NCBI GenBank assembly: GCA_903850425.1
Contig: CAINLR010000176.1
Location: 62,001 to 126,000, forward strand
Source: an uncultured Verrucomicrobia subdivision 3 bacterium
GTDB lineage: Bacteria; Verrucomicrobiota; Verrucomicrobiia; Limisphaerales; UBA11358
Direction: 5' to 3'
Length of the DNA: 64,000 nt
Positions 44,897-58,961 of this stretch are shown here, one piece after another. Both the position numbers and the translations under genes were made by a program. The notes beneath the pieces are model-generated. The model saw nothing but the letters and a program-made list of their open reading frames with translations, was not told the origin of the DNA and made no database searches. The stretch's first letter is position 1. Each line of letters begins with the position of its first letter.

Positions 44897-44972
44897 GGGC
44901 GTTTGGCACAGCGGTTAGCGCAACTCGTTTACACCGAGTAGGTCGGGGGTTCGAATCCCTCAACGCCCACCA
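44897..44972 (+). tRNA. tRNA-Val (anticodon TAC)
   Basis: GGGCGTT (44897-44903) pairs with AACGCCC (44962-44968). The anticodon arm ACTCG-TTTACAC-CGAGT is perfect, giving anticodon TAC (Val, codons GTA/GTG). The T arm is GGGGG-TTCGAAT-CCCTC (one mismatch at its base), and CCA is encoded at 44970-44972. A short palindrome TGGCAA-GCG-TTGCCA lies 26 bases upstream. The phage module ends about 270 bases downstream. Confidence 0.93.
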
Positions 44973-45238: not shown

Positions 45239-47332
45239 TCAGATATACGCCCCGTCAAAATATTCGCTGAACGATACTTCCAGCCGATCATCGTCGCCGT
45301 ATTGCAGATCTTCCACGCGGAACAGTTTCTGCGCCCAGGCGGGCTGGCTACTGTGCGTGACGTCAATGATGTCCCCCGGTTCCAGCGCGACGCCGAGCAC
45401 CGTCGTTTTGAGGATGCCAGTCCAGACCACATTGCTGGCTTCGCGCAAGAGCACCTGGCCGACCCGCTGCGCCTGCTGCTGGTTGTCAATCGCCGGATAT
45501 TTCAGCGTCTGTTCGACCACGCCGTCGTTGCCGATCCGGGCCGCGCGATTGGCCTGGTCGGCGGCGTCGTCCAGATCCACCTCGGTTTCGGAATTGTAGG
45601 TGTTCTGATCGTGGAAAAACAATTTGAGCCGGTTCGGCATCTGCGCGCGATCAATCAGCGTGCTCTGGAATGAATCTTTCAGGATGTTGCCTTCGTTGAA
45701 CGAAAATATGCTCGTGTCGCTGGCGCGGGCCTTCATGACGAATTTTCCGCCGCTGAGGAAGAGATAAGCGCACGCGGCATCGCAGATCACTTGGATGTGT
45801 TCCTGGATGGGCTTGCGAAAATCAATCGCGTAGTTTGTGGTGTAGCGCGGATTAGTCGTCATGCCGCTGGAATCGGTCCAGGTCACCGGGGTGTTGCAAT
45901 ACGTTTGGAACGCCACGGCCCGCACCCAGTCAATTTTGCCCGCATCAAATCCCTTCCCCCGGCCCTTTTCGGTCAGCAAATAGACCAAATGATCTGCCGG
46001 GCATTGGGTCCAGGCGCGCGTGTAGTAAGTATAGGTGGCGACGACGGACGCCGCCGCCGCGGGCGCGGTGACAAATTCGATGAATCCCTTGGTGGCATTC
46101 AGGTGGAAAACCGCGCCCGATTGGTGGCTGGCATCCATTTGCGTCTGCGCCGTGCCATTAACCGTCACGGCCGACACCGCCGCGACGTCAGAATTAGCGA
46201 AGAGGAACCGTTTGGTGCTGCCATCGCCCGCCGCCAGCGTTTCCGCCGTGGCCGTGGTGACAATGAAGCCTGAATTGTCATACGTCCGGCATAACCGGCC
46301 CTGCACGCGGGCATTCAGGTTGAAGCTCGTGAAGATCGTGGAATTAAACAGGCGAAACACGAGGTAAGCGCAGCCGCTGTAGCCATAGACCGGGAAGGTG
46401 CGATCGTAGCTGGCCCGGATGTCCACCGGCACACTGATGTCCGGCGTGGCGTTGTAAATCGTCATGCTCGGCGCATACGTTACCGCGCCAATGCTGCCGC
46501 TCACCGCTTCTGCCTTGGTCTGCGCCGGATTGAGCGTGATCCCGATGTTAGGGGAGCCGGCGAAAAAGGAGGAATCCGTGTAAGTGATCCCGTTTACCAG
46601 GATATTCAGGTCCGCAGAGTCCACCGCACTGACCGGGCCGCTCGCCAGCACCACGATCTTGTTCGCGGCCTGCTGCACGGGGTTGCTGACCGTCAGATTT
46701 TTATCCTTCAACTGGGTGTAAGGCGAATTGCCCGCCACTGTCACTTCCCCCAAAATATCCGGCAGCGGAATCTCCGGCGAATTCTGGGTCATAAGCCCGT
46801 CGAAACCATATTTGCCGGTCTTGTTGCCCTGCCGCGCCAGCGTGGGCATCAGGAAGTGGGCGGCGATCGAGAAAACAATGGATACAATGATCCCGATGAC
46901 CACTGACCAGCCCAGGGATTTATCCGCCAACGCCCGCGCGAGAATTTCAGCGTCCGCCGGCTTCACCATCGCCACCGGCGTCATCCCCACGCGCCGCGCC
47001 AGGGTAAATCCATTTTCGATTCTACTCGGAGATCCGCGCAGCGAGTGCAGCAACTTGCCAGCGCCGAGCCACACCGCCACATGCCGGATGGCACCATCGG
47101 AATGCGCGAAAAAAATCACCTCGCCGCGCGTCAAATTCTTTTCCACGAACGGATGATCCGCCAGCAGCGTCTTCAACTCGCCGGGCCGTGGTTGGCTACT
47201 GGGCACCGGCGCGGTGAAGCCGGCTTCGCGCGTGAGCCAGAGGCACGTCAGGCCCACGCAATCCGCCCCGGCAAAGTTCCGCCCGCCATCCTTCCACGGA
47301 ATGCCCACATATTGTTCATCGGCTTGTTTCAT
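45239..47332 (-). CDS. NlpC/P60 peptidase - tail tip (gp14-gp15-type) fusion protein
   Basis: 697 residues from ATG 47332; the longer frame upstream is antisense to the hub gene and has no similarity. Residues 1-130 are an NlpC/P60 cell-wall peptidase domain: Cys25 in 'FAGADCVGLTCLW', His84 in 'IRHVAVWLG' and His96 in 'LLHSLRG'. A hydrophobic segment follows near 145-170 ('VVIGIIVSIVFSIAAHFL'). The remainder is a tail-tip/baseplate protein ('DILGEVTVAGNSPYTQL...DHLVYLLTEKGRGKG...YNSETEVDLDDAADQANRAARIGNDGVVEQTLKYPAIDNQQQAQRVGQVLLREA...PGDIIDVTHSS'). In Rhodobacter-type GTA these are separate proteins (gp14 peptidase and gp15). It should open the host wall and form the tip. It is the last gene of the tail operon. 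Confidence 0.85.
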   Translation of the reverse strand: MKQADEQYVGIPWKDGGRNFAGADCVGLTCLWLTREAGFTAPVPSSQPRPGELKTLLADHPFVEKNLTRGEVIFFAHSDGAIRHVAVWLGAGKLLHSLRGSPSRIENGFTLARRVGMTPVAMVKPADAEILARALADKSLGWSVVIGIIVSIVFSIAAHFLMPTLARQGNKTGKYGFDGLMTQNSPEIPLPDILGEVTVAGNSPYTQLKDKNLTVSNPVQQAANKIVVLASGPVSAVDSADLNILVNGITYTDSSFFAGSPNIGITLNPAQTKAEAVSGSIGAVTYAPSMTIYNATPDISVPVDIRASYDRTFPVYGYSGCAYLVFRLFNSTIFTSFNLNARVQGRLCRTYDNSGFIVTTATAETLAAGDGSTKRFLFANSDVAAVSAVTVNGTAQTQMDASHQSGAVFHLNATKGFIEFVTAPAAAASVVATYTYYTRAWTQCPADHLVYLLTEKGRGKGFDAGKIDWVRAVAFQTYCNTPVTWTDSSGMTTNPRYTTNYAIDFRKPIQEHIQVICDAACAYLFLSGGKFVMKARASDTSIFSFNEGNILKDSFQSTLIDRAQMPNRLKLFFHDQNTYNSETEVDLDDAADQANRAARIGNDGVVEQTLKYPAIDNQQQAQRVGQVLLREASNVVWTGILKTTVLGVALEPGDIIDVTHSSQPAWAQKLFRVEDLQYGDDDRLEVSFSEYFDGAYI

Positions 47333-47355
47333 AATTGGGTCCAGCGTCACGCTGG
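47331..47355 (-). repeat. 25-base intergenic palindromic repeat, copy 1
   Basis: Identical to 50224-50248. It contains CCAGCGTGACGCTGG on the minus strand, which folds into a hairpin. It fills the whole gap between the hub stop codon and the next start codon. Confidence 0.85.
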
Positions 47356-49047
47356 CTACTGCGCCAGCACATTGACCATGTTTTGCAGTTCCAGATCGTT
47401 GAATCCGCCGTAATTTTCCGTGTTCAGCCGCGCGCAGCACGCGTTGAACGTCCGCGCGCAGCCCCGTTTGAGCGTGAACGTGTCGCCGCTGGCCGGGGCC
47501 ACCGGCAGCGGCGCGCAAAAGAGTTCGCCGCTGAAACTCTGGAGCACCTGGCGCGACACGCCCTGGAGCGCCGCCGTGACATTGCCGCTGAACGTGAGCT
47601 GGCCATCCAGCCACCAATTCCGGCTGCCGGTGTAGGCGCTTACCTGCTGAAACATCAGGTAATAAAGCGTCTCCGCCCAGCGGCTGCGCACACAGATGCG
47701 CCAATAGCGTGCCGTGCTCGCTTTGGGGATCAGCACGTCAAATAATTGGCCGCCCACCTTGGGCACTTCAAAATAACTCTCAAACGTCCAGGTGCTGGCA
47801 TCCGGCGAGGAAAAGAATTCAATCAAGCGCACCCGCTGCTCCGCCTGCACCCAGTCAAAGCTCGACACCTGCCAGAGTTTGGGCGTCACCGCGCTGCCAA
47901 AATCAAATTGGATGTAAGGCTTCAGCGCGGCGTTTTTCAGGCCCGCCTGCGCATCGGGGATTTGGTAATACCCCTGCACCTGGGTGCCCCAATCGGCGGC
48001 ATTCGTGAACTGCCAGCCCAGTCCGTTGCTGATTTTCACCCCTTTGGCTCCCACGCTCGTCTGGAGATACGCCACCAAGCCACTGCCTGCCGTCGTCAGA
48101 TTCACCGCCGCCCCGCCCGGCGTGAGCGAGAGCCGGCACTGCAAATTCGTGGCGTCGCGGATGTAATAGGTGGTGAACAGGGCCAGCGGGGCCGGCGGCG
48201 TGGTGCCGGCGGCAAATGTCAGCGGCAGTCCCGTCGTCATGAAGTAATTGGTGGGATGGTTAAACACCACGTAATCCGTGGCTGGATTCACCGTGCAGGG
48301 AACGCCGCCTGACACCGGCCCTTCGCTGCTCGCCGTGATCGCCGCATCGGCCAGCGCATTCACCAGGTCCGCGCCATAACCGCTGCTGCTGCCCGTGTCC
48401 TGGGTCAGCGCCGCCGCCTTCACATTGGTGAGGCTGCTGCCAGATCCGCACGTCCCCGCCAGCCGGTTTTCCGGCCGCCAGGGAATTTGCGTGCAGTTGT
48501 CATCGCCAAAGCGGAACCGGCAGCTCGCGTGCATATTCTCGCTCGGCAGCAGATAATTCAACGCCCCCAAACTGCTGCTGCAAGTGAATTGCAATGTGGC
48601 GGTGGTGATGCTGATGCTGTCCACCACGCCTGTGAAGAGCACCGCGCAATCATTCGTTGTCAGGCCCGGTTGGCCGAGCGGCACTTTGCGGATCACCACC
48701 GGCGTGTCATACCAGTTCACCAGGGCGAGCAGCGCGGCGAACTGGCTCGTCACATTGCTGGCGTTGATCTGGAGCTTGTCATCCTGGAATTTCGTGTCGC
48801 CCTTCACCACATCGCGCTTCAGCGGCCAATATTGATACGTCTGGGCCGTGCCGCGCGTCGCTCCCGGTTCCGGGGCATCGTTCGGCGCAAAAAACGCGAA
48901 GCCGTCCGGCGTGGTGCAGAGGCGGATAATGTTCGTGGTGCCCCACGGCGTGACGATGCTGGCGCTGAGATAGAATTCATAGAGTTCCACCCAGCCGGAT
49001 TGCCCGGCGGCGGCGGAAGTGGAAACAGGTGACGTGAGCGTTTTCAT
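47356..49047 (-). CDS. DUF2163 / BR0599-type tail hub protein with inserted discoidin-like domain
   Basis: 563 residues. The N-terminal part ('WVELYEFYLSASIVTPWGTTNIIRLCTTPDGFAF...YQYWPLKRDVVKGDTKFQDDKLQINASNVTSQFAALL') and the C-terminal part ('GDTFTLKRGCARTFNACCARLNTENYGGFNDLELQNMV') are the two halves of the DUF2163/phage BR0599 family, the gp13-type hub. About 250 residues in between are additional. They include 'GYYQIPDAQAGLKNAALKPYIQFDFGSAVTPKLWQVSSFDW...FFSSPDASTWTFESYFEVP...ARYWRICVRS', with the pattern of an F5/8-type C (discoidin, carbohydrate-binding) fold. Cys pairs near 175-200 ('SCRFRFGDDNCTQIPW') may be structural. It lies between distal tail and peptidase-tip genes, the GTA order. 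Confidence 0.82.
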   Translation of the reverse strand: MKTLTSPVSTSAAAGQSGWVELYEFYLSASIVTPWGTTNIIRLCTTPDGFAFFAPNDAPEPGATRGTAQTYQYWPLKRDVVKGDTKFQDDKLQINASNVTSQFAALLALVNWYDTPVVIRKVPLGQPGLTTNDCAVLFTGVVDSISITTATLQFTCSSSLGALNYLLPSENMHASCRFRFGDDNCTQIPWRPENRLAGTCGSGSSLTNVKAAALTQDTGSSSGYGADLVNALADAAITASSEGPVSGGVPCTVNPATDYVVFNHPTNYFMTTGLPLTFAAGTTPPAPLALFTTYYIRDATNLQCRLSLTPGGAAVNLTTAGSGLVAYLQTSVGAKGVKISNGLGWQFTNAADWGTQVQGYYQIPDAQAGLKNAALKPYIQFDFGSAVTPKLWQVSSFDWVQAEQRVRLIEFFSSPDASTWTFESYFEVPKVGGQLFDVLIPKASTARYWRICVRSRWAETLYYLMFQQVSAYTGSRNWWLDGQLTFSGNVTAALQGVSRQVLQSFSGELFCAPLPVAPASGDTFTLKRGCARTFNACCARLNTENYGGFNDLELQNMVNVLAQ

Positions 49048-49057
49048 ATTGCTTTTA

Positions 49058-49130
49058 AGTAGGAGACGAGGTGACGAGTCTCTAACTTTTCACCCGAATT
49101 GATTCGAGACTCCTCACGTCGTCTCCTACT
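49058..49130. repeat. Long inverted repeat between distal tail and hub genes
   Basis: Two 25-base arms (49058-49082 and 49106-49130) are complementary with two mismatches around a 23-base loop. The arms contain AGTAGGAGACGA and a GACGTGAG-like core related to the other phage-region hairpins. No T-run, so not a typical terminator. Confidence 0.85.
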
Positions 49131-49144
49131 GGAAATAATATTCT

Positions 49145-50221
49145 TCATGCGATTGGCAACCCATATTGATAACCGAGTAAATTGTGCACCGCCTTGATCT
49201 GTGCGTCGCTCAACTGGCCGGGGAAGTAAAGGACGTGCGCGAGATCCGCATTCGCCATTGCGTTGCCGGGATTCATCGGAAACGTGCCGTCAAAATTCGC
49301 GCCCAATACCAGCGGGCCGCTCAGATTATATGCCACCGCCGCCCCGCTATAGACCGACGTGCCGTTCGTCCAGATTTTGGTCGAGGGTTCCAACGTAAAG
49401 GCCAGGCTGCGCCAGGTGTTGGCCGGACTGTTGGCCTGCACCAGCCCAGTGGCAACGCCCTTCCAGAGTTCATATTGGGATGAGGAGTTAATCATCACGC
49501 CCAGCGCATTGCCACTGCTCTGCGTCCCCACCGCAAACAACACTTGCGAGTTGGTGCTCGCCGAATGCCGCGCAATGAAGAACACCGTCACCGCCGGATT
49601 CGTGCCGCTCAGCGGCGTCAGACTCGCCGCCGTCTTGGCCCATTCCGTGCCGCTGAAATGATAGTGCTGATATTGCGTGAGGAGGTCGCCGAGGTTCAGC
49701 GCCGTGCCGCTCTGCCAGACCGCGCGATACGCTTCCATCACATCCCACGTCGAGCCTTCGCGAATCACGCTGGCCAGGTGCTGCAGATAATATTCCCGGT
49801 TGGGGTCATACCACGCCACCGGTGCCACGCCCGCCGCCGCGCTCAGCTCGTCAAACTCCGGCAGCGCGCGGATCGGCGCGACTTCCTCCAGATCAATCTT
49901 CACCCCCGCCAGCATCGCCGCCCGCGCTTCCTTGAGCTGCGTGGCAAAGCGCACGCTGGCATTGCCGCCGCGCGTGATGTTGTCGCGAAACCAGAACGCG
50001 TCATACTGCCCGCCGCGCTGGCTGTTGAAGCTGCGCAGATATTTATACTCTGCCGCCTTCAGCGGGGCATGGCTCACCGTGAACTTGCGCTTGAAATTTT
50101 GCGCGCTCCAGTAGCTGCGCGCCGCCGTGTTGCCCGCCTCAAATTCATCGCGCAGCGTGCGGTCCAGCCGCTCAATTTCGAGCTGCTGAATCAAACCGAG
50201 TGGATACAAAACGTTGCTCAT
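49145..50221 (-). CDS. DUF2460-like distal tail protein with LamG-like C-terminus
   Basis: 358 residues. The N-terminal ~190 match the DUF2460/distal tail pattern (GTA gp12-type): 'YPLGLIQQLEIERLDRTLRDEFEAGNTAARSYWSAQNFKRKFTVSHAPLKAAEYKYLRSFNSQRGGQYDAFWFRDNITRG'. The C-terminal ~165 look like a concanavalin/LamG domain ('FSGTEWAKTAASLTPLSGTNPAVTVFFIARHSAST...WRSLAFTLEPSTKIWTNGTSVYSG...LSDAQIKAVHNLLGYQYGL'), common in tail proteins that touch carbohydrate. It should cap the tail tube and link it to the hub. It follows the tape measure gene by 27 bases, a gap made by the second copy of the palindromic repeat. Confidence 0.78.
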   Translation of the reverse strand: MSNVLYPLGLIQQLEIERLDRTLRDEFEAGNTAARSYWSAQNFKRKFTVSHAPLKAAEYKYLRSFNSQRGGQYDAFWFRDNITRGGNASVRFATQLKEARAAMLAGVKIDLEEVAPIRALPEFDELSAAAGVAPVAWYDPNREYYLQHLASVIREGSTWDVMEAYRAVWQSGTALNLGDLLTQYQHYHFSGTEWAKTAASLTPLSGTNPAVTVFFIARHSASTNSQVLFAVGTQSSGNALGVMINSSSQYELWKGVATGLVQANSPANTWRSLAFTLEPSTKIWTNGTSVYSGAAVAYNLSGPLVLGANFDGTFPMNPGNAMANADLAHVLYFPGQLSDAQIKAVHNLLGYQYGLPIA

Positions 50222-50248: not shown

Positions 50249-52186
50249 TCACGCGGTCAGCCCTTTCACCGCGCTGCTGATGGCGGAATTGCGCTTCATT
50301 TGCTTGGTCACTTCCGTCACTGCGCCCTTGATGGAATTGCTCACGATGTTCGCCTGCGTTTCCGGCGTATGCTCAATCCGAATATGGATCACGCCGCCCG
50401 CGCTGCCGCCGCCGCTGTTTTCCAAATCGCTCGCATTGGTGATGGCCAGCCGCCGATTGCCCGCGTTGCCGACGACGGCATCCATGCCGCCGATGCTGCG
50501 GAACGTCGGCTTGGCCAGCACCGTCAACATCTCCATGCCCGCCTCGCCCGCCACCACGTTGAACTTGGGAAAATAAGTTGCGGACGAAACCGACTGGATC
50601 CCGTTGGCCGCGTAATGCACGCCGCCCGTGGCGTTGGCCGTGGCCGTGCCACCGCTGCCGAAATAGGAGCTGGCCGATTTGATCGCATTCAAAATTTCCT
50701 GCTGAATGATCATCTCGGCAATCTGCGTGAGGAACGAGGCCGCGAACTGGCCAAACGCTTCCTCGGCGGACTTCGTGCCATCCGCAAAGCTCACCAGGGC
50801 ATTGGCCATGCCGCTCGCGAACGACTGCGCCGCGCTGTCCGCCATCTGCTGCCACTGCTTGATGTGCAACGCCGAATCATCCACGGCTTTCTTTTGCAGT
50901 TCCGCGCCGGCGCGGGCCTTGGCGTTGAAGTTATCCACCGCTGCCTGGCTCAAACCCAGTTGCGTGGCCAGCTCGCGATATTGTTTGATGAGCGCCGCCG
51001 TGGTCTGGTCAATCGCCCTGACCTTGCGCGCCTCGCCCGTGAGGTTTTCCAGTTCCACGCGGTTTTCCAAATCGCCCAATTGTTTCTGCACTGTGGCCGC
51101 CGCCTTGAGCGCCGATTCCTTCTCCTTTTCCACGCTCGCCTGCGCTGCCACGAGCTGGTGCTGCTGCGTCATCACATACGTCGTGAAATCATCGGCGGAA
51201 ATCTTTTCCTGCTGCGCGAGTTTGTGCATCGCTTCCACCTTGAAGGTGTTTTCCTGCTCGGCGGAGAGCTGCCGTTTCTGGCCCAGCATGTTCTCATACT
51301 GGAAGAGGTCATCGTCAATCTGTTTGACGGCCTCGGCGTAAGCCTTGGACTGTTCGGCCCCCTGCACGCCCGCCAGCTTGGAATTATATTCCGTCATCGC
51401 GCCCTGTTCGGCCTTGCTGCCTTCCTGCGCGGTGAGGCCGCCGCTGCCCTTGAGATTGCCAATGTCAATCAGCCGCTGCTCATAGACTTCATGGGCCTTG
51501 CTGCGTTCGGCATCAAAATGGTCCATCGTCGCCCGGTGCATGTCGTCTTCCAACTTCCGCAACTTTTCGTAGTTGGAAATCTGCTCGCCGGAAATGCCGA
51601 GTTCAGAGAGCCGCGCTTGTGCCGAGCGCAAGGCTGAAGGCGTTCCAATGCTCAACAGCTTGGTGATGAATTCCCAGTCCGCCGGATTGATCAGCCGTTT
51701 GCCCAGCGCATCGTTGAGCGCGTTGAAATTGCGGGCGATGTTGCTCTGCGTCGCCGCGAACAGCGCCGCTTCGCTCTCCGCCTCGCTGACGCTCGCCCGC
51801 CACGTTTGCAAGGCCACCGCCCCGGTCACCACCAACGGCGTAAACGCCAGCATCCCCGTGCCAATTGCCGTCAGCGAAATCCCCAGCATGGACATGGCCT
51901 GCACCACGCGCGGCGTTTCCATGGCCAGCACGCGCACGGGATTGATGCCAATGGCCAGCGCATCCGCCGAACTGCGCGCCACATGACCGAGTTCCATGTA
52001 AGCCATCCGGTTGCCGCCCAGCGCCGCCGTATGGCCTTGCATGGCCTGCTCGGCCTGTTTGATGACCGCCGTGGTCTTGGTGACCTCCTCGCCCACTTTC
52101 TTGATATCCGCCGCCGCCGGCGCGGCACTGCCCTCCGTTTGAATGGAGATCACATACTTGGCCGTGGCATTGCTGAGATCGGACAT
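50249..52186 (-). CDS. Tail length tape measure protein
   Basis: 645 residues. Rich in Ala, Gln, Lys and Glu with long predicted coiled coils, as for tape measure proteins. The hydrophobic segment 'VVQAMSMLGISLTAIGTGMLAFTPLVVTGAVAL' (about 95-130) is the typical membrane-insertion region, and 'SFASGMANALVSFADGTKSAEEAFGQFAASFLTQIAEMIIQQEILNAIKSASSYFGSG' matches the lambda gpH C-terminal region. It sets tail length and is injected ahead of DNA. The short length predicts a tail of about 95-100 nm by the usual 0.15 nm per residue. It follows the G/GT chaperone, as in lambda. Confidence 0.88.
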   Translation of the reverse strand: MSDLSNATAKYVISIQTEGSAAPAAADIKKVGEEVTKTTAVIKQAEQAMQGHTAALGGNRMAYMELGHVARSSADALAIGINPVRVLAMETPRVVQAMSMLGISLTAIGTGMLAFTPLVVTGAVALQTWRASVSEAESEAALFAATQSNIARNFNALNDALGKRLINPADWEFITKLLSIGTPSALRSAQARLSELGISGEQISNYEKLRKLEDDMHRATMDHFDAERSKAHEVYEQRLIDIGNLKGSGGLTAQEGSKAEQGAMTEYNSKLAGVQGAEQSKAYAEAVKQIDDDLFQYENMLGQKRQLSAEQENTFKVEAMHKLAQQEKISADDFTTYVMTQQHQLVAAQASVEKEKESALKAAATVQKQLGDLENRVELENLTGEARKVRAIDQTTAALIKQYRELATQLGLSQAAVDNFNAKARAGAELQKKAVDDSALHIKQWQQMADSAAQSFASGMANALVSFADGTKSAEEAFGQFAASFLTQIAEMIIQQEILNAIKSASSYFGSGGTATANATGGVHYAANGIQSVSSATYFPKFNVVAGEAGMEMLTVLAKPTFRSIGGMDAVVGNAGNRRLAITNASDLENSGGGSAGGVIHIRIEHTPETQANIVSNSIKGAVTEVTKQMKRNSAISSAVKGLTA

Positions 52187-52215: not shown

Positions 52216-52587
52216 TCAATTCCCGGCGGCCATCATGGCCGCGAACTCTTCCGCGCTCGCCGGGGCCTGGCTTACGGGCGTCTGCACGCCCGTTGCAACT
52301 TCATTGCTGAACTGCTGCAGCTCCGTTTTCAACTGCCGGTAAAGTTCCCGGCAACCGTCGCCGCTCTGCGCCGCCGCCGCGATGGCCAGCGCCCGCAGCT
52401 CCCGCCGCACCTGGGCCGCGCTGTGTCGCCGGTGCAACCAGAGCAGCCGGGCCGGCGAAGCGCGCAGTAATATATGGTGCGGATGATGACATTCGATCAG
52501 GTCGCACTCGGCGGCGTAGTAATCGGCGTAAGTGGCGCGCTCACCGCCTGCGGATCGGTGGTCGCCGGGGCATCCGTCCGCAGAGAC
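52216..52587 (-). CDS. T-type extension of tail assembly chaperone, reached by -1 frameshift
   Basis: An open -1 frame relative to G. From codon GTC at 52587 it runs 123 codons to a stop at 52216: starts VSADGCPGDHRSAGGERATY, ends TPVSQAPASAEEFAAMMAAGN. There is no ATG in the frame before 52437 (only a TTG there), so expression by frameshift from the upstream gene is likely. The fused GT product would have about 219 residues (96 + 123). Lambda-type tails need both G and GT to load the tape measure protein, whose gene starts 30 bases downstream. The Cys/His cluster 'AECDLIECHHPHHILL' is unusual. Confidence 0.7.
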   Translation of the reverse strand, partial: VSADGCPGDHRSAGGERATYADYYAAECDLIECHHPHHILLRASPARLLWLHRRHSAAQVRRELRALAIAAAAQSGDGCRELYRQLKTELQQFSNEVATGVQTPVSQAPASAEEFAAMMAAGN

Positions 52588-52874
52588 TTTTTTAGCGCGT
52601 CAATTCCATGCGTGAGTTGCAGCGCCACGTTGCGGATTTCCACCAGGCCATTCGGCGGCAGCTTGTCCAGGAGCGGTTGCTCGGTTTTGCCCACGGCATT
52701 TTCCAGCGTGTGGACCATTTCATCCTCGACGCGTTTGAACGTGCTGCCGATGGCCGCGCGCCAACTGAGCGCATTAACAGTCACCGTTACCGGCGCGCCA
52801 TCGCGACCCGCCGTGGTGATGCGTTTGAAGCCCTGCAAAACGTCGGCTTCCGTGACTAAGTTCGTTGGTTCCAT
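52497..52874 (-). CDS. Tail assembly chaperone (G-type)
   Basis: From ATG 52874, 125 residues. A longer frame adds 16 residues from REP-like sequence, so the internal ATG (MEPTNLVTEADVLQGFKRIT) is preferred. 'APVTVTVNALSWRAAIGSTFKRVEDEMVHTLENAVGKTEQPLLDKLPPNGLVEIRNVALQLTHGIDALKKSLRTD' is consistent with a small chaperone, though the family was assigned mainly by position: between tail tube and tape measure genes, with a frameshift site. The slippery sequence lies at codons 94-96. After the site the normal product continues with a Thr/Pro/Ala-rich tail. Confidence 0.7.
   Translation of the reverse strand: MEPTNLVTEADVLQGFKRITTAGRDGAPVTVTVNALSWRAAIGSTFKRVEDEMVHTLENAVGKTEQPLLDKLPPNGLVEIRNVALQLTHGIDALKKSLRTDAPATTDPQAVSAPLTPITTPPSAT
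52548..52593 (-). promoter_or_regulatory. Programmed -1 frameshift signal (A AAA AAG plus hairpin)
   Basis: On the minus strand the G frame reads CTA-AAA-AAG, so the heptamer A-AAA-AAG (52593-52587) is in the correct phase for -1 slippage, the same heptamer as in E. coli dnaX. Three bases after it, CTGCGGA (52583-52577) pairs with TCCGCAG (52554-52548). The -1 frame is open to 52216. Confidence 0.75.
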
Positions 52875-52961: not shown

Positions 52962-54224
52962 TCAATAAAACTTCAGCGCAAATTCGCTGTTGACGGCATC
53001 GGTCAGGTTGGCGCGTTCGGCGCTGTAAGTGATCGGCGTGGTGCGCAGGCCCTGGCGGTCGCCATAGCTCACGCTCTCTGGCACGCCGATGATCTGCACC
53101 TGAAACTTGTTGCCGGAATCCGTGCCGATCTTGCCCGTGATGGTGCGGCTCGTGGCGCTGTTCAGATCGTCCCAAACCGGCGACGTCGCTTCCACCACGC
53201 TTTCCGGGTCAATCGTCGCCTTCGTGGCGCGATCCGTGATGAGGAAGCCCGCCACGCCATTCACGCTGTTGGCATCCTCGCGTTTCGTCACCTTGGCCCC
53301 CAGGTCAAAATCCAGTTTGGTGAACACGGGCGAATAGCTACCCACCGTGCTGCCGCTGGCGCTGAAGACCGGCGGCTTGGTATTCAGAAACACCGCCGCC
53401 GTGTTGGCGTTGAACGTCAGGTTCAGCGTGGCCGTGGTGCCGGTGCCGCCGGTCACCGCATTGGCGCTGAGGCTGGGGCTGACCGAATATAGGCCCACTT
53501 GCGCCACCTTGATACCGGTGATCTGGCCCGTGCTGCTCACCGCCGTCACCCGCGCCGAGGCCGTCACCGTTCCCGTGCCGCCGGCAATGGTTAGGATATC
53601 GCCGACCACATAGCCGGTGCCGGACGCCTGCACCGCCACGGTGGCCAGGTAATTGCCCGCCGCCGGCAGCGCCGCATCCACCACATCCACATAACTGCCG
53701 GTGAAACTGAAATCCAACTGGCCAAACTGCCCGGCCTGCAGGGAGCCTTTGACCGTGCCTTTGCAGCCGGTGATCTTGTGCAGCTTCAAGCCGCTGTAAA
53801 AATAGAACGTCACGCTCGCCCCGGTCGTGGCTGGCACCAGGGGCAGATAGGTCACATTGCCATCCCGCGCGCCGCCCGAGCTTTCGGCGGTGTAAGTCGG
53901 CGTCAGATCGCACGCCTGCAGCAGGCAGTCAATCTCCAGTTTGTTGGCCACGTAACCGGCGGAAATATCCGCCACCGCGCCCGTGGTGCGGTTCCCGCGC
54001 ACTTCCACGCTGAAGTCAAACGAGACTTCCGGCAGCGTGTTCGCGCCCGCCACCTTGCTGAAGGAGCCATCCGCCACCTGCCGCATGATGTGCGTGAACT
54101 TGGGGCCGAATTTGACCGTGTTGCGAATCATCGCAATCGTGTTCAAGCCGCCCGTGGGCACCGGGTCCACGCCGTAAGTGGTCTCGCTTTTCGCGAGCAC
54201 CAGACCGAATACACTTCTTTCCAT
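52962..54224 (-). CDS. Major tail tube protein
   Basis: 420 residues. The N-terminus 'MERSVFGLVLAKSETTYGVDPVPTGGLNTIAMIRNTVKFGPKF' is typical of phage tail tube proteins (the 'E..YG.DP.PT' start). A tube fold follows: 'SFDFSVEVRGNRTTGAVADISAGYVANKLEIDCLLQACDL', 'KITGCKGTVKGSLQAGQFGQLDFSFTGSYVDV'. Residues about 195-290 are an added Gly/Thr-rich beta region ('VAVQASGTGYVVGDILTIAGGTGTVTASARVTAVSSTGQITGIKV'), probably an Ig-like or decoration domain exposed on the tube. The C-terminus 'TDSGNKFQVQIIGVPESVSYGDRQGLRTTPITYSAERANLTDAVNSEFALKFY' is normal. It forms the tail shaft. Confidence 0.85.
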   Translation of the reverse strand: MERSVFGLVLAKSETTYGVDPVPTGGLNTIAMIRNTVKFGPKFTHIMRQVADGSFSKVAGANTLPEVSFDFSVEVRGNRTTGAVADISAGYVANKLEIDCLLQACDLTPTYTAESSGGARDGNVTYLPLVPATTGASVTFYFYSGLKLHKITGCKGTVKGSLQAGQFGQLDFSFTGSYVDVVDAALPAAGNYLATVAVQASGTGYVVGDILTIAGGTGTVTASARVTAVSSTGQITGIKVAQVGLYSVSPSLSANAVTGGTGTTATLNLTFNANTAAVFLNTKPPVFSASGSTVGSYSPVFTKLDFDLGAKVTKREDANSVNGVAGFLITDRATKATIDPESVVEATSPVWDDLNSATSRTITGKIGTDSGNKFQVQIIGVPESVSYGDRQGLRTTPITYSAERANLTDAVNSEFALKFY

Positions 54225-56129: not shown

Positions 56130-58862
56130 TCAGTCCGTGCGAACGTCAATGCTATAGACCCAGATCGTGGCCTTGTTCGTGACCATCTGGAGATAAAACT
56201 GGTTGAGCATCACGTTTGTCGGGTTGAACCCGCTGCTGTAGGTGTTCGTGATCGTCACCTGATACACCACCGGCGAGGTCGGGCTGGCCACCGTGCTGAT
56301 CATGGGATAGACGCCTGGCAAGGGCACCGGCCAGGCCAGGTCAAGGAAGTTGCCACCGCCTTGATACGGCGTGGTGCAGCCGTAGTAGTGCGCGTTCCAT
56401 GCCAGCACCTCCGTGTTAGTCGAAAGGAAAGTAACCCGCGTGTAAATGTTCGTCTTGCCCCAGAACATCGAGGTGGGAATGGAGAAGAGCGAACTGTTGC
56501 CCGCCCCGCCGCTGGTGTTCGTGGCCGTGCCCAGCAGCGCGATGTAATTGACGAAAAACGCTTTGGTGTTGTCCGAAGTGCCGCTGGAGCCGAGCTGCGT
56601 CGGTGTGGGGTTCAGTGTGAAATAATCGAAGCCAAAGCGCGCCGTGTTCGTGATGGTGCTAATGACTGTGTTGGTGATGTTGTTGGTGATGTAAGTGGTG
56701 CCGCCGCCGCCAGCCGCGACATTGGCCGGCGTGAGTTGCGCCACCCAGTTGGTCAGCGCCGCCGCCAGCAACAGCGCACCATTCGTCTGCGGATGCACAC
56801 CATCTGCGCAGATGCCGTTGGGAAATGCCAGCCCGTTGACCAACCACACTCCGCCATTCGTCGTCAGCACGTTATTCGTGCCAACCTCCACTTGCGCGGC
56901 CACGTCAAATATGCCGGACAATGGCGGCGGACAGGTTCTAAGCCAGGTGTTGATCGCGGCCCGCGGTGCCCCCATGGTGTCGGTTTCGTGGAACGCCGAC
57001 TGATACCGGTCATCCACTTTTGCCGTCACGGCCGCACTGGGAATCCCTTTCAAAGTGATGCTCCCACTGGTCGCGGTGAACAACCAATTGTTGGTAGCGC
57101 AGTCGCCCGCCCCATAATTAACCAGCGTGTCATTCCCGCCATTGTTCGTTGTCCAGAGATAAGTCCAGCCGTTGGTCACCGACAAAGTGTAGGTGCCGCC
57201 ACCCGTATAAGTCGCGCCCGCCGGCACCAAATTTACCAGGCTGACGCGCGGCGTGATCGTCGTCTGATATACCGAAACGCCATTGGTAGCATACGAAACC
57301 CATAGTTGCGTCATCAGGTTTGTCATGCGACTAAAGGTCGAATCCAGTGCAAGATCGTTGAAACCCAGTTCGTCTAGCACTATGTCACAACTTTTGAGAG
57401 TCAAATCCTTGTGCACATTCGCGTTGGTCTGTTCATAAGTGATCGCATTGCCAAACCAGTTCATCGCCACTGAGGGATAGTTCGTCCCAACCGCCTTGGC
57501 AAAGTAACCCTGATAAGTGCCGGAGGCGTTCGCCTGGCTGGAGCTGCTCACACTGACGCTATCACCAATAAAGGCGATGGCATGGCCGATGCCACTACTA
57601 AGGATCGCGCACGGGGCAAAGTTGTAATACAAGCTGGTGACCCCATCCGCCACTGGAATCGTATTGGTGAGCGCCGCAAACCCAATGTCATTTGTGCCCA
57701 ACAAACTGCCGCTCTCCATCGCCGTGCCTCCGAACAAATCCACGTTGCCGTTCTGCGCCGCTGAACTGACGATATAGCCCATTGGCGCACTGGGAACACT
57801 CGCCCATTGGCGCATTCGGAACTTGGTGTTAGCCGGAATGAATAGCTGCATCCGATCGGCCTGAACCATGGCGTTGGTCTGACAAATAACATTCGTCTGC
57901 CCGCCAAACGTAAAGAAGTGAAACACCCCATTTGGGTATTCGACTAACGACTGGATAGTCACCGGACTCATGTTCGTCGAATATGACTGCCAGTTGTTAT
58001 TGGCGGGACCGGCTTGTTGGCCAACCAATCCATTGTAATTCGCATACACCACGGTCAAGTCATTGATCGGGGTCGGCCCTGTGCGATAGGTAATCAAACT
58101 CACCTCATTGGTGGCCCGCCAGCGCAGACTATTGGTATTACCATAAGCCAGCTCGTAGGCGGCAAAGCCGTCAATGGCGTTAGCCACAAACGTGCCCACG
58201 ACCGAGTTCCGATAATTAAGATTCACGTTTTGCTGGCCGTTGGTAACGGCCCCACCAAAACTGATTACGGGCCAAATCTGACTGGGATTGATCGTCGTCA
58301 ATTGATTGCTGCTCAGCCCGGTGATATTGGTGATCAACTGCTTGGTGAAATACGTGTTTGGCACCATGCAGTTGGTGATGTTCACCACGCCGAGGTTGTA
58401 GCCCACCGCAATGCTGAAGGGATCACGCCCGCTGATCAGCGGCAGCGCCACGGTGTAGTTTTGCGGATCCAGCACGATGCTGAAAAAACCATTCGTGGCC
58501 GTGATCGTCTTGGACGGCCCGGCGGCGAGGCCATTGTTATTGATGAGAATGGTGCTGTCGGGAATAAAGGAAATCTTGGTGGTGAGTCCGTTCTGGCCGG
58601 TGAGGTCAAGCAGATTGCCCGTCACCGTTGTCACCGCCGGCGTTGCAATGGCGCTGCACAGGATCAGCAACGCGACTGCCAGGCGCACATTGCGCCGAAC
58701 CCAGGCATCCGGCAAACCCAGCGCTTCCCCCGGCGTGAGCTCGCCCGCGCATTCTTGCGGCAGCGCGCGCGGCGCGGGCGACTTCAGCGCGCGATCGTTC
58801 GGCGGCTGCGCCAGCATTCCCGTTCGCAGGTTCAATTTCTGCTTTCTGCTTTCTGCTTTCAT
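56130..58862 (-). CDS. SGNH-hydrolase-domain protein encoded in the head module
   Basis: From ATG 58862 (910 residues) or ATG 58817 (MLAQPPNDRA, 895). A hydrophobic segment ('LAVALLILCSAIATPAV', about 66-82) looks like a membrane or export signal. The middle holds SGNH/GDSL hydrolase blocks: GDS in 'HAIAFIGDSVSVSSSS' (about residue 433), 'LDELGFNDLALD' (GxND block, about 499) and 'DGVHPQTNGALLL' (DxxH block, about 687), so an esterase/deacetylase is likely. The flanks are Asn/Thr-rich beta segments of tail-fibre type ('TTYITNNITNTVISTITNTARFGFDYF'). Its place between capsid and connector genes is odd for a fibre. It could be a capsid decoration or a moron gene. Confidence 0.72.
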   Translation of the reverse strand: MKAESRKQKLNLRTGMLAQPPNDRALKSPAPRALPQECAGELTPGEALGLPDAWVRRNVRLAVALLILCSAIATPAVTTVTGNLLDLTGQNGLTTKISFIPDSTILINNNGLAAGPSKTITATNGFFSIVLDPQNYTVALPLISGRDPFSIAVGYNLGVVNITNCMVPNTYFTKQLITNITGLSSNQLTTINPSQIWPVISFGGAVTNGQQNVNLNYRNSVVGTFVANAIDGFAAYELAYGNTNSLRWRATNEVSLITYRTGPTPINDLTVVYANYNGLVGQQAGPANNNWQSYSTNMSPVTIQSLVEYPNGVFHFFTFGGQTNVICQTNAMVQADRMQLFIPANTKFRMRQWASVPSAPMGYIVSSAAQNGNVDLFGGTAMESGSLLGTNDIGFAALTNTIPVADGVTSLYYNFAPCAILSSGIGHAIAFIGDSVSVSSSSQANASGTYQGYFAKAVGTNYPSVAMNWFGNAITYEQTNANVHKDLTLKSCDIVLDELGFNDLALDSTFSRMTNLMTQLWVSYATNGVSVYQTTITPRVSLVNLVPAGATYTGGGTYTLSVTNGWTYLWTTNNGGNDTLVNYGAGDCATNNWLFTATSGSITLKGIPSAAVTAKVDDRYQSAFHETDTMGAPRAAINTWLRTCPPPLSGIFDVAAQVEVGTNNVLTTNGGVWLVNGLAFPNGICADGVHPQTNGALLLAAALTNWVAQLTPANVAAGGGGTTYITNNITNTVISTITNTARFGFDYFTLNPTPTQLGSSGTSDNTKAFFVNYIALLGTATNTSGGAGNSSLFSIPTSMFWGKTNIYTRVTFLSTNTEVLAWNAHYYGCTTPYQGGGNFLDLAWPVPLPGVYPMISTVASPTSPVVYQVTITNTYSSGFNPTNVMLNQFYLQMVTNKATIWVYSIDVRTD

Positions 58863-58961
58863 ATTTGTTTTCAAAGGGAAGTGGCACCGGAGATCGGAGA
58901 GATGCTCCGATGCCACCGTTAAGCCGCGACGCGGGACCAAGCGCGAGCGGCAAAGTTGTTT

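Follow-up and report, generated by a model that had tools for sequence, protein, structure and literature searches.

The window, the whole stretch of 64,000 nucleotides analysed here, carries the head and tail module of a putative prophage. On the minus strand, genes for a tail tube (major tail) protein of 420 aa (52962..54224) and for a tape measure protein of 645 aa (50249..52186) flank a short gene with two overlapping reading frames. The tape measure gene is recognised by PHROG tape measure matches (to 5.8e-9) and by a Pfam match to Tape_meas_lam_C above cut-off; the tail tube gene is assigned from its position and its homology to the gene in the same place in relatives, its PHROG matches being weak and mixed. 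The initial annotation had placed a tail chaperone gene between these two, and that placement is borne out, with the same order recurring in relatives. The remaining module genes encode portal, prohead protease, capsid, connector and distal tail proteins, and a terminase gene follows the module just beyond the window edge.

The tail tube protein contains an extra region of ~80 aa (residues ~195-280), the site of PHROG head-decoration and weak Gp18 domain matches, that is missing in relative L003 and, by tblastn, also in L086; in relative L088 the tail tube gene is present as two tandem copies (708-1640 and 1702-2718). The distal tail genes (45239-50221, minus strand) match DUF2460, Phage_BR0599, NlpC/P60 and Phage-tail_3, a set that we take to resemble a gene-transfer-agent type tail module. 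Between the head-tail connector and capsid genes lies a 936-aa ORF without a Pfam match (56130-58940, minus strand). A tRNA-Val(UAC) gene (44897-44972, plus strand) adjoins the end of the tail module, and no duplicated 15-mer was found in the contig stretch searched. Outside the window, an AAA ATPase with a weak match to the Mu B C-terminal domain (L311:12738-13925, or 76738-77928 in window numbering) has a 767-aa ORF adjacent to it, upstream; this pair suggests that the prophage could be of the transposable, Mu-like kind. The prophage contig also encodes a 1262-aa protein with an HNH_4 domain and a Cas9-like N-terminus (L312:12823-16608), followed by a 298-aa Cas1-like ORF.

The zero frame of the short gene, a predicted tail assembly chaperone short form ('G'), occupies 52497..52874 on the minus strand and encodes 125 aa between an ATG at 52874 and a TGA at 52497-52499. 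This 125-codon gene (52874-52497) is read around the slip site as ...GAC GCG CTA AAA AAG TCT CTG CGG..., which sets the slippery heptamer A AAA AAG (52587..52593, minus strand) in exact phase for -1 slippage, as the initial annotation had proposed, and leaves 29 more zero-frame codons 3' of the site before the stop. Counted from the slip, the -1 frame (the 'T' part; 52216..52593, minus strand) has 125 codons before a TGA at 52216-52218, or 127 if the two codons upstream of the slip are included; its upstream limit is a TGA at 52602-52600, and it is open only to 52599. It had been described as open for 123 codons, and the openness holds, that count being the one obtained after the two slip codons. 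The predicted fusion length was reproduced from the sequence as exactly 219 aa, against 125 aa for the zero-frame product. A further statement, that the -1 frame has no ATG, was mistaken: tandem ATG codons occur at 52236 and 52233, near the stop, and other start-like codons are found at 52437 (TTG) and 52410 (GTG), although none of these is able to start the domain.

Relatives were collected with the tail tube and tape measure proteins as search anchors, the chaperone being too divergent for single-sequence searching. As a single-protein query it returned zero matches among viral contigs, and INPHARED phages gave short tape-measure C-terminus matches only, with no chaperone match. One locus from a class-wide genome search with the chaperone (L002) was rejected as a chance match that overlaps an ABC-transporter-like ORF. 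Seven distinct in-group loci were obtained (L086, L090, L003, L087, L088, L089 and L234), among which L090 is a Verrucomicrobia MAG from the same order as the host. In all seven, the gene that follows the tail tube gene contains an A-run in phase, and beyond the run the -1 frame is open for 108-139 codons. Run length is A6 in the window, A7 in L086 and L090, A8 in L003, and A9 in L087, L088, L089 and L234. The relatives' heptamer is A AAA AAA; L087, with A9 followed by G, contains A AAA AAG as well, and the window's heptamer with its A6 run occurs in none of the seven. Comparison of the heptamer across related prophages, proposed in the initial annotation, therefore yields a divided answer: the exact A AAA AAG is not kept, but relatives do keep an A-run in phase and the -1 direction. 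The L086 counterpart of the window's lysine pair reads CTT AAA AAA, which is not in the phase that tandem slippage needs; a site that is in phase follows ten codons downstream, and the slip site itself may have moved. Both halves of the fusion are common to the window and six aligned relatives, and several of these share a C-terminal motif (SAEEFAAMM / SWEQAKAMM type), in an alignment of seven that is too diverse to serve as a search profile.

Downstream of the heptamer, RNA folding predicts a hairpin (52548..52583, minus strand) made of the 7-bp stem CTGCGGA/TCCGCAG and an inner stem. The stem and its start 3 bases after the heptamer were both found as first described, with arms at 52583-52577 and 52554-52548. 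The 3-nt spacer (TCT), shorter than expected, is real, and the same distance separates the A-run from a predicted hairpin in the A7 relative L090. The 40 nt after the heptamer fold at -17.0 kcal/mol (z -1.97; 8 of 200 shuffles fold equally well), and windows of 50-60 nt have no excess stability over shuffles. Upstream, a stimulatory Shine-Dalgarno element was sought and rejected for the window, where no convincing candidate is present: a weak GGA (52605..52607, minus strand), 11 nt upstream of the heptamer with a duplex energy of -3.3 kcal/mol, is probably not functional. L003 has GGGAG 10 nt upstream of its site, and this is not conserved.

The lysine tRNAs of the host bear on how slippery the site would be. 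Among the tRNAs found by ARAGORN in the host genome are one tRNA-Lys(UUU) and one tRNA-Lys(CUU), and the latter was called in 19 of the 20 homologous loci that were checked, among them the window genome. The tRNA-Lys(CUU) (L202:41-116) has an unusual anticodon loop, CTCTTTC, with U replacing the purine after the anticodon, and its activity is thus unproved. Frameshifting at E. coli dnaX proceeds with an efficiency of 50%. With two lysine tRNAs, unlike E. coli, efficiency at the window site is expected to fall below that value, as the putative tRNA-Lys(CUU) should lower slippage on AAG; a yield lower than that of dnaX would suit a chaperone. The exceptional slippage on A AAA AAG in E. coli is attributed to weak pairing of the sole lysine tRNA with AAG (PMC5009743). 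Measured frameshift efficiencies of tail chaperones are 6-7% (PMC3711429), and the ratio in lambda is 30:1 (PMC5009743).

The same tRNA complement is relevant to the strongest alternative, in which RNA polymerase adds an A within the A-run and normal translation of the altered transcript gives the fusion, as in Thermus dnaX. Thermus has two lysine tRNAs and uses transcriptional slippage on A9 (PMC5009743), and the host lineage resembles it in its two lysine tRNAs. Four of the eight in-group members carry A9 (L087, L088, L089 and L234) and L003 carries A8, placing them in the class of poly-A runs longer than 7 that is implicated in transcriptional realignment (PMC3711429); downstream structure also tends to be weaker in A9 members, a trend drawn from eight sequences only. 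The A6 run of the window is below the implicated length, which makes transcriptional slippage unlikely there (PMC3711429), and L086 and L090 have only A7; the A AAA AAC and G GGA AAC heptamers of far relatives, moreover, fit tandem tRNA slippage. We accordingly consider this explanation improbable for the window gene, and a live rival in the A9 members. Combining the two mechanisms, the lineage could conceivably straddle ribosomal slippage where the run is short and a hairpin follows (A6 in the window, A7 in L086 and L090) and transcriptional slippage on A9 runs with little downstream structure (L088, L089 and L234), the second lysine tRNA of the hosts disfavouring slippage on AAG and the site having moved in L086; this is a speculative reading that we judge unlikely overall.

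Evidence that the -1 frame is translated as a continuation of the zero frame comes chiefly from the closest relative, L086. The -1 peptide matches the -1 frame of L086 with 39% identity (tblastn, 4e-18), and the region 3' of the zero-frame stop aligns with a score of 137 in this frame, against 6 and 38 in the other two; in L090 and L003, whose zero-frame stops lie far downstream, such scores are uninformative. G+C by codon position in the post-stop -1 stretch (0.72, 0.51, 0.78) is coding-like. Conservation in the -1 frame is highest in a block that reads DYYAAECDLIEC in the window and DFFAVECELIEC in L086 (8 of 12 residues identical by inspection) and occupies -1 codons 22-34; the first ATG, GTG or TTG of the frame comes at codon 52 in the window and at codon 39 in L086; the open -1 stretch 5' of the slip, 2 codons in the window and 9 in L086, has no start in either. 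No standard initiation codon can therefore make the block, and ribosomes must arrive from the zero frame. The -1 ORF thus has no usable start of its own and overlaps the zero frame at an in-phase heptamer. These observations weigh heavily against two separate genes, in which the downstream ORF would start independently, at TTG 52437 or elsewhere, by reinitiation or coupling. Non-ATG starts do exist in frame (TTG 52437 and GTG 52410), but TTG 52437 has no ribosome-binding site just before it, the conserved block lies 5' of every candidate in both the window and L086, and in-phase slippery sites recur in all relatives, which leaves this arrangement very improbable. A homopolymer indel from sequencing or assembly, or a decayed chaperone gene, which a single draft assembly of 197 contigs might bring to mind, is less credible still, as independent contigs and isolate genomes show the two-frame layout too and both frames are conserved as protein.

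How far the arrangement extends was assessed in 235 locus entries, some of them duplicates, that all have a homologous tail tube; about 200 show the same two-frame layout. In 195 of the 211 entries left after removal of 24 that were too short, an in-phase heptamer (A AAA AAV or G GGA AAV) leads to a -1 exit 80 or more codons long; 7 use another heptamer and 9 have none. A AAA AAC (142) and G GGA AAC (42) predominate. As a control, the window and related loci were scanned across 1,577 ORFs of 90 aa or more, yielding 192 in-phase A AAA AAV or G GGA AAV heptamers, 60 of which open into a -1 frame that spans at least 85 codons and extends beyond the zero-frame stop. Since 53 of these 60 long exits fall at the tail-chaperone position, the layout is more than chance, in what is a background estimate only, the control picking genes greedily by length and missing some short chaperone ORFs. 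In distant relatives the -1 part contains DUF1799, and a weak Phage_TAC_4 match occurs in one of them; profile comparison of the in-group chaperone with these Phage_TAC_4/DUF1799-type chaperones of distant tail-tube relatives found no similarity. This agrees, at the level of sequence, with the published conservation of the G-T frameshift despite low sequence similarity (PMC5009743).

A Pfam search with the chaperone gave no match, and in PHROG the zero frame was likewise unmatched, the -1 frame reaching only a sub-threshold hit to phrog_1131 (unknown function; E 0.014). Structure prediction was more informative. An AlphaFold2 model of the zero-frame protein, built from a 7-sequence alignment (pLDDT 80.4), aligned in VIA-align with 3FGX (Z 7.6, rmsd 4.3, 82 aligned), with the HK97 tail assembly chaperone 2OB9 (Z 6.3, rmsd 2.5, 72 aligned) and with YqbN, 3KLU (Z 5.4, rmsd 3.6, 79 aligned). 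All Z scores are below 8, and the next solved structure falls to Z 2.5. 3FGX and YqbN are presumably prophage chaperones themselves. Foldseek also ranked 2OB9 first, weakly (E 0.12), and the model has viral fold matches as well, tail assembly chaperones and a 'pre-tape measure frameshift protein G' among them. The fold predicted for the zero-frame product is therefore like that of HK97-type tail assembly chaperones, with a moderate match. The -1 part is modelled as mainly helical (pLDDT 72), and this domain alone has no viral fold match below E 0.001.

Taken together, -1 coding, conserved phase, gene order and predicted fold favour the programmed -1 frameshift in a Verrucomicrobiota phage chaperone that the initial annotation had put forward. 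We consider the gene to be a tail assembly chaperone gene of a long-tailed prophage with a programmed -1 ribosomal frameshift of the lambda G/GT type, with a probability of roughly 0.88; that the slippage is ribosomal is an inference. Most ribosomes would read CTA AAA AAG straight through and stop at 52497, giving the 125-aa short form. A minority would slip one base back on A AAA AAG, with lysine tRNAs on AAA and AAG and probably with help from the GC-rich hairpin 3 nt downstream, and would continue in the -1 frame to 52216, giving the 219-aa fusion with its extra, mainly helical domain. If the two forms work as gpG and gpGT do in lambda, binding of the tape measure protein would fall to the N-terminal part present in both, and tail tube subunits would be recruited by the -1 domain, which only the rare long form has. 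The G/GT frameshift as a phage device has long been known; comparison with relatives shows its conservation in a group with an uncatalogued chaperone. Frameshifting of the G/GT type thereby reaches a group of Verrucomicrobiota phages with a chaperone that lies outside Pfam and is only weakly touched by PHROGs, so that gene callers would miss the long form. The series of A6, A7, A8 and A9 runs in one gene, in hosts with two lysine tRNAs, also offers a natural test of when a phage relies on ribosomal or on transcriptional slippage.

Among known systems, Thermus thermophilus dnaX (A9) shares with this group the two lysine tRNAs of the host and, in four relatives, the A9 run, whereas the run in the window is only A6. 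With E. coli dnaX the site has in common the heptamer A AAA AAG and a predicted GC-rich downstream hairpin, but it differs in the absence of a clear upstream Shine-Dalgarno stimulator, in its 3-nt spacer, in a frameshift product that is longer (219 versus 125 aa) rather than shorter, and in the second lysine tRNA (CUU) of the host. The earlier label 'dnaX-type' thus fits the heptamer, is less sure for the predicted downstream hairpin, which is only modestly better than shuffles, and fails for the Shine-Dalgarno element, the shorter product, the sole lysine tRNA and the A-runs of relatives. Proteobacterial prophage chaperones (Phage_TAC_4-like / DUF1799, with A AAA AAC or G GGA AAC) have a homologous tail tube and the same -1 layout; their sequences bear no detectable profile relation to this one, and their zero-frame stop usually follows two codons after the site. 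A conserved family of tail assembly chaperone -1 frameshifts was reportedly described by Xu, Hendrix and Duda in 2004. The lambda heptamer is G GGA AAG. The gene studied here departs from lambda gpG/gpGT in its A AAA AAG heptamer, in the 29 zero-frame codons past the site and in a chaperone that has no Pfam family and a sub-threshold PHROG match only, and it resembles lambda in the order of tube, chaperone and tape measure genes, in a heptamer located in the 3' part of the first ORF and in a longer product made by a -1 shift, a layout kept despite little sequence similarity.
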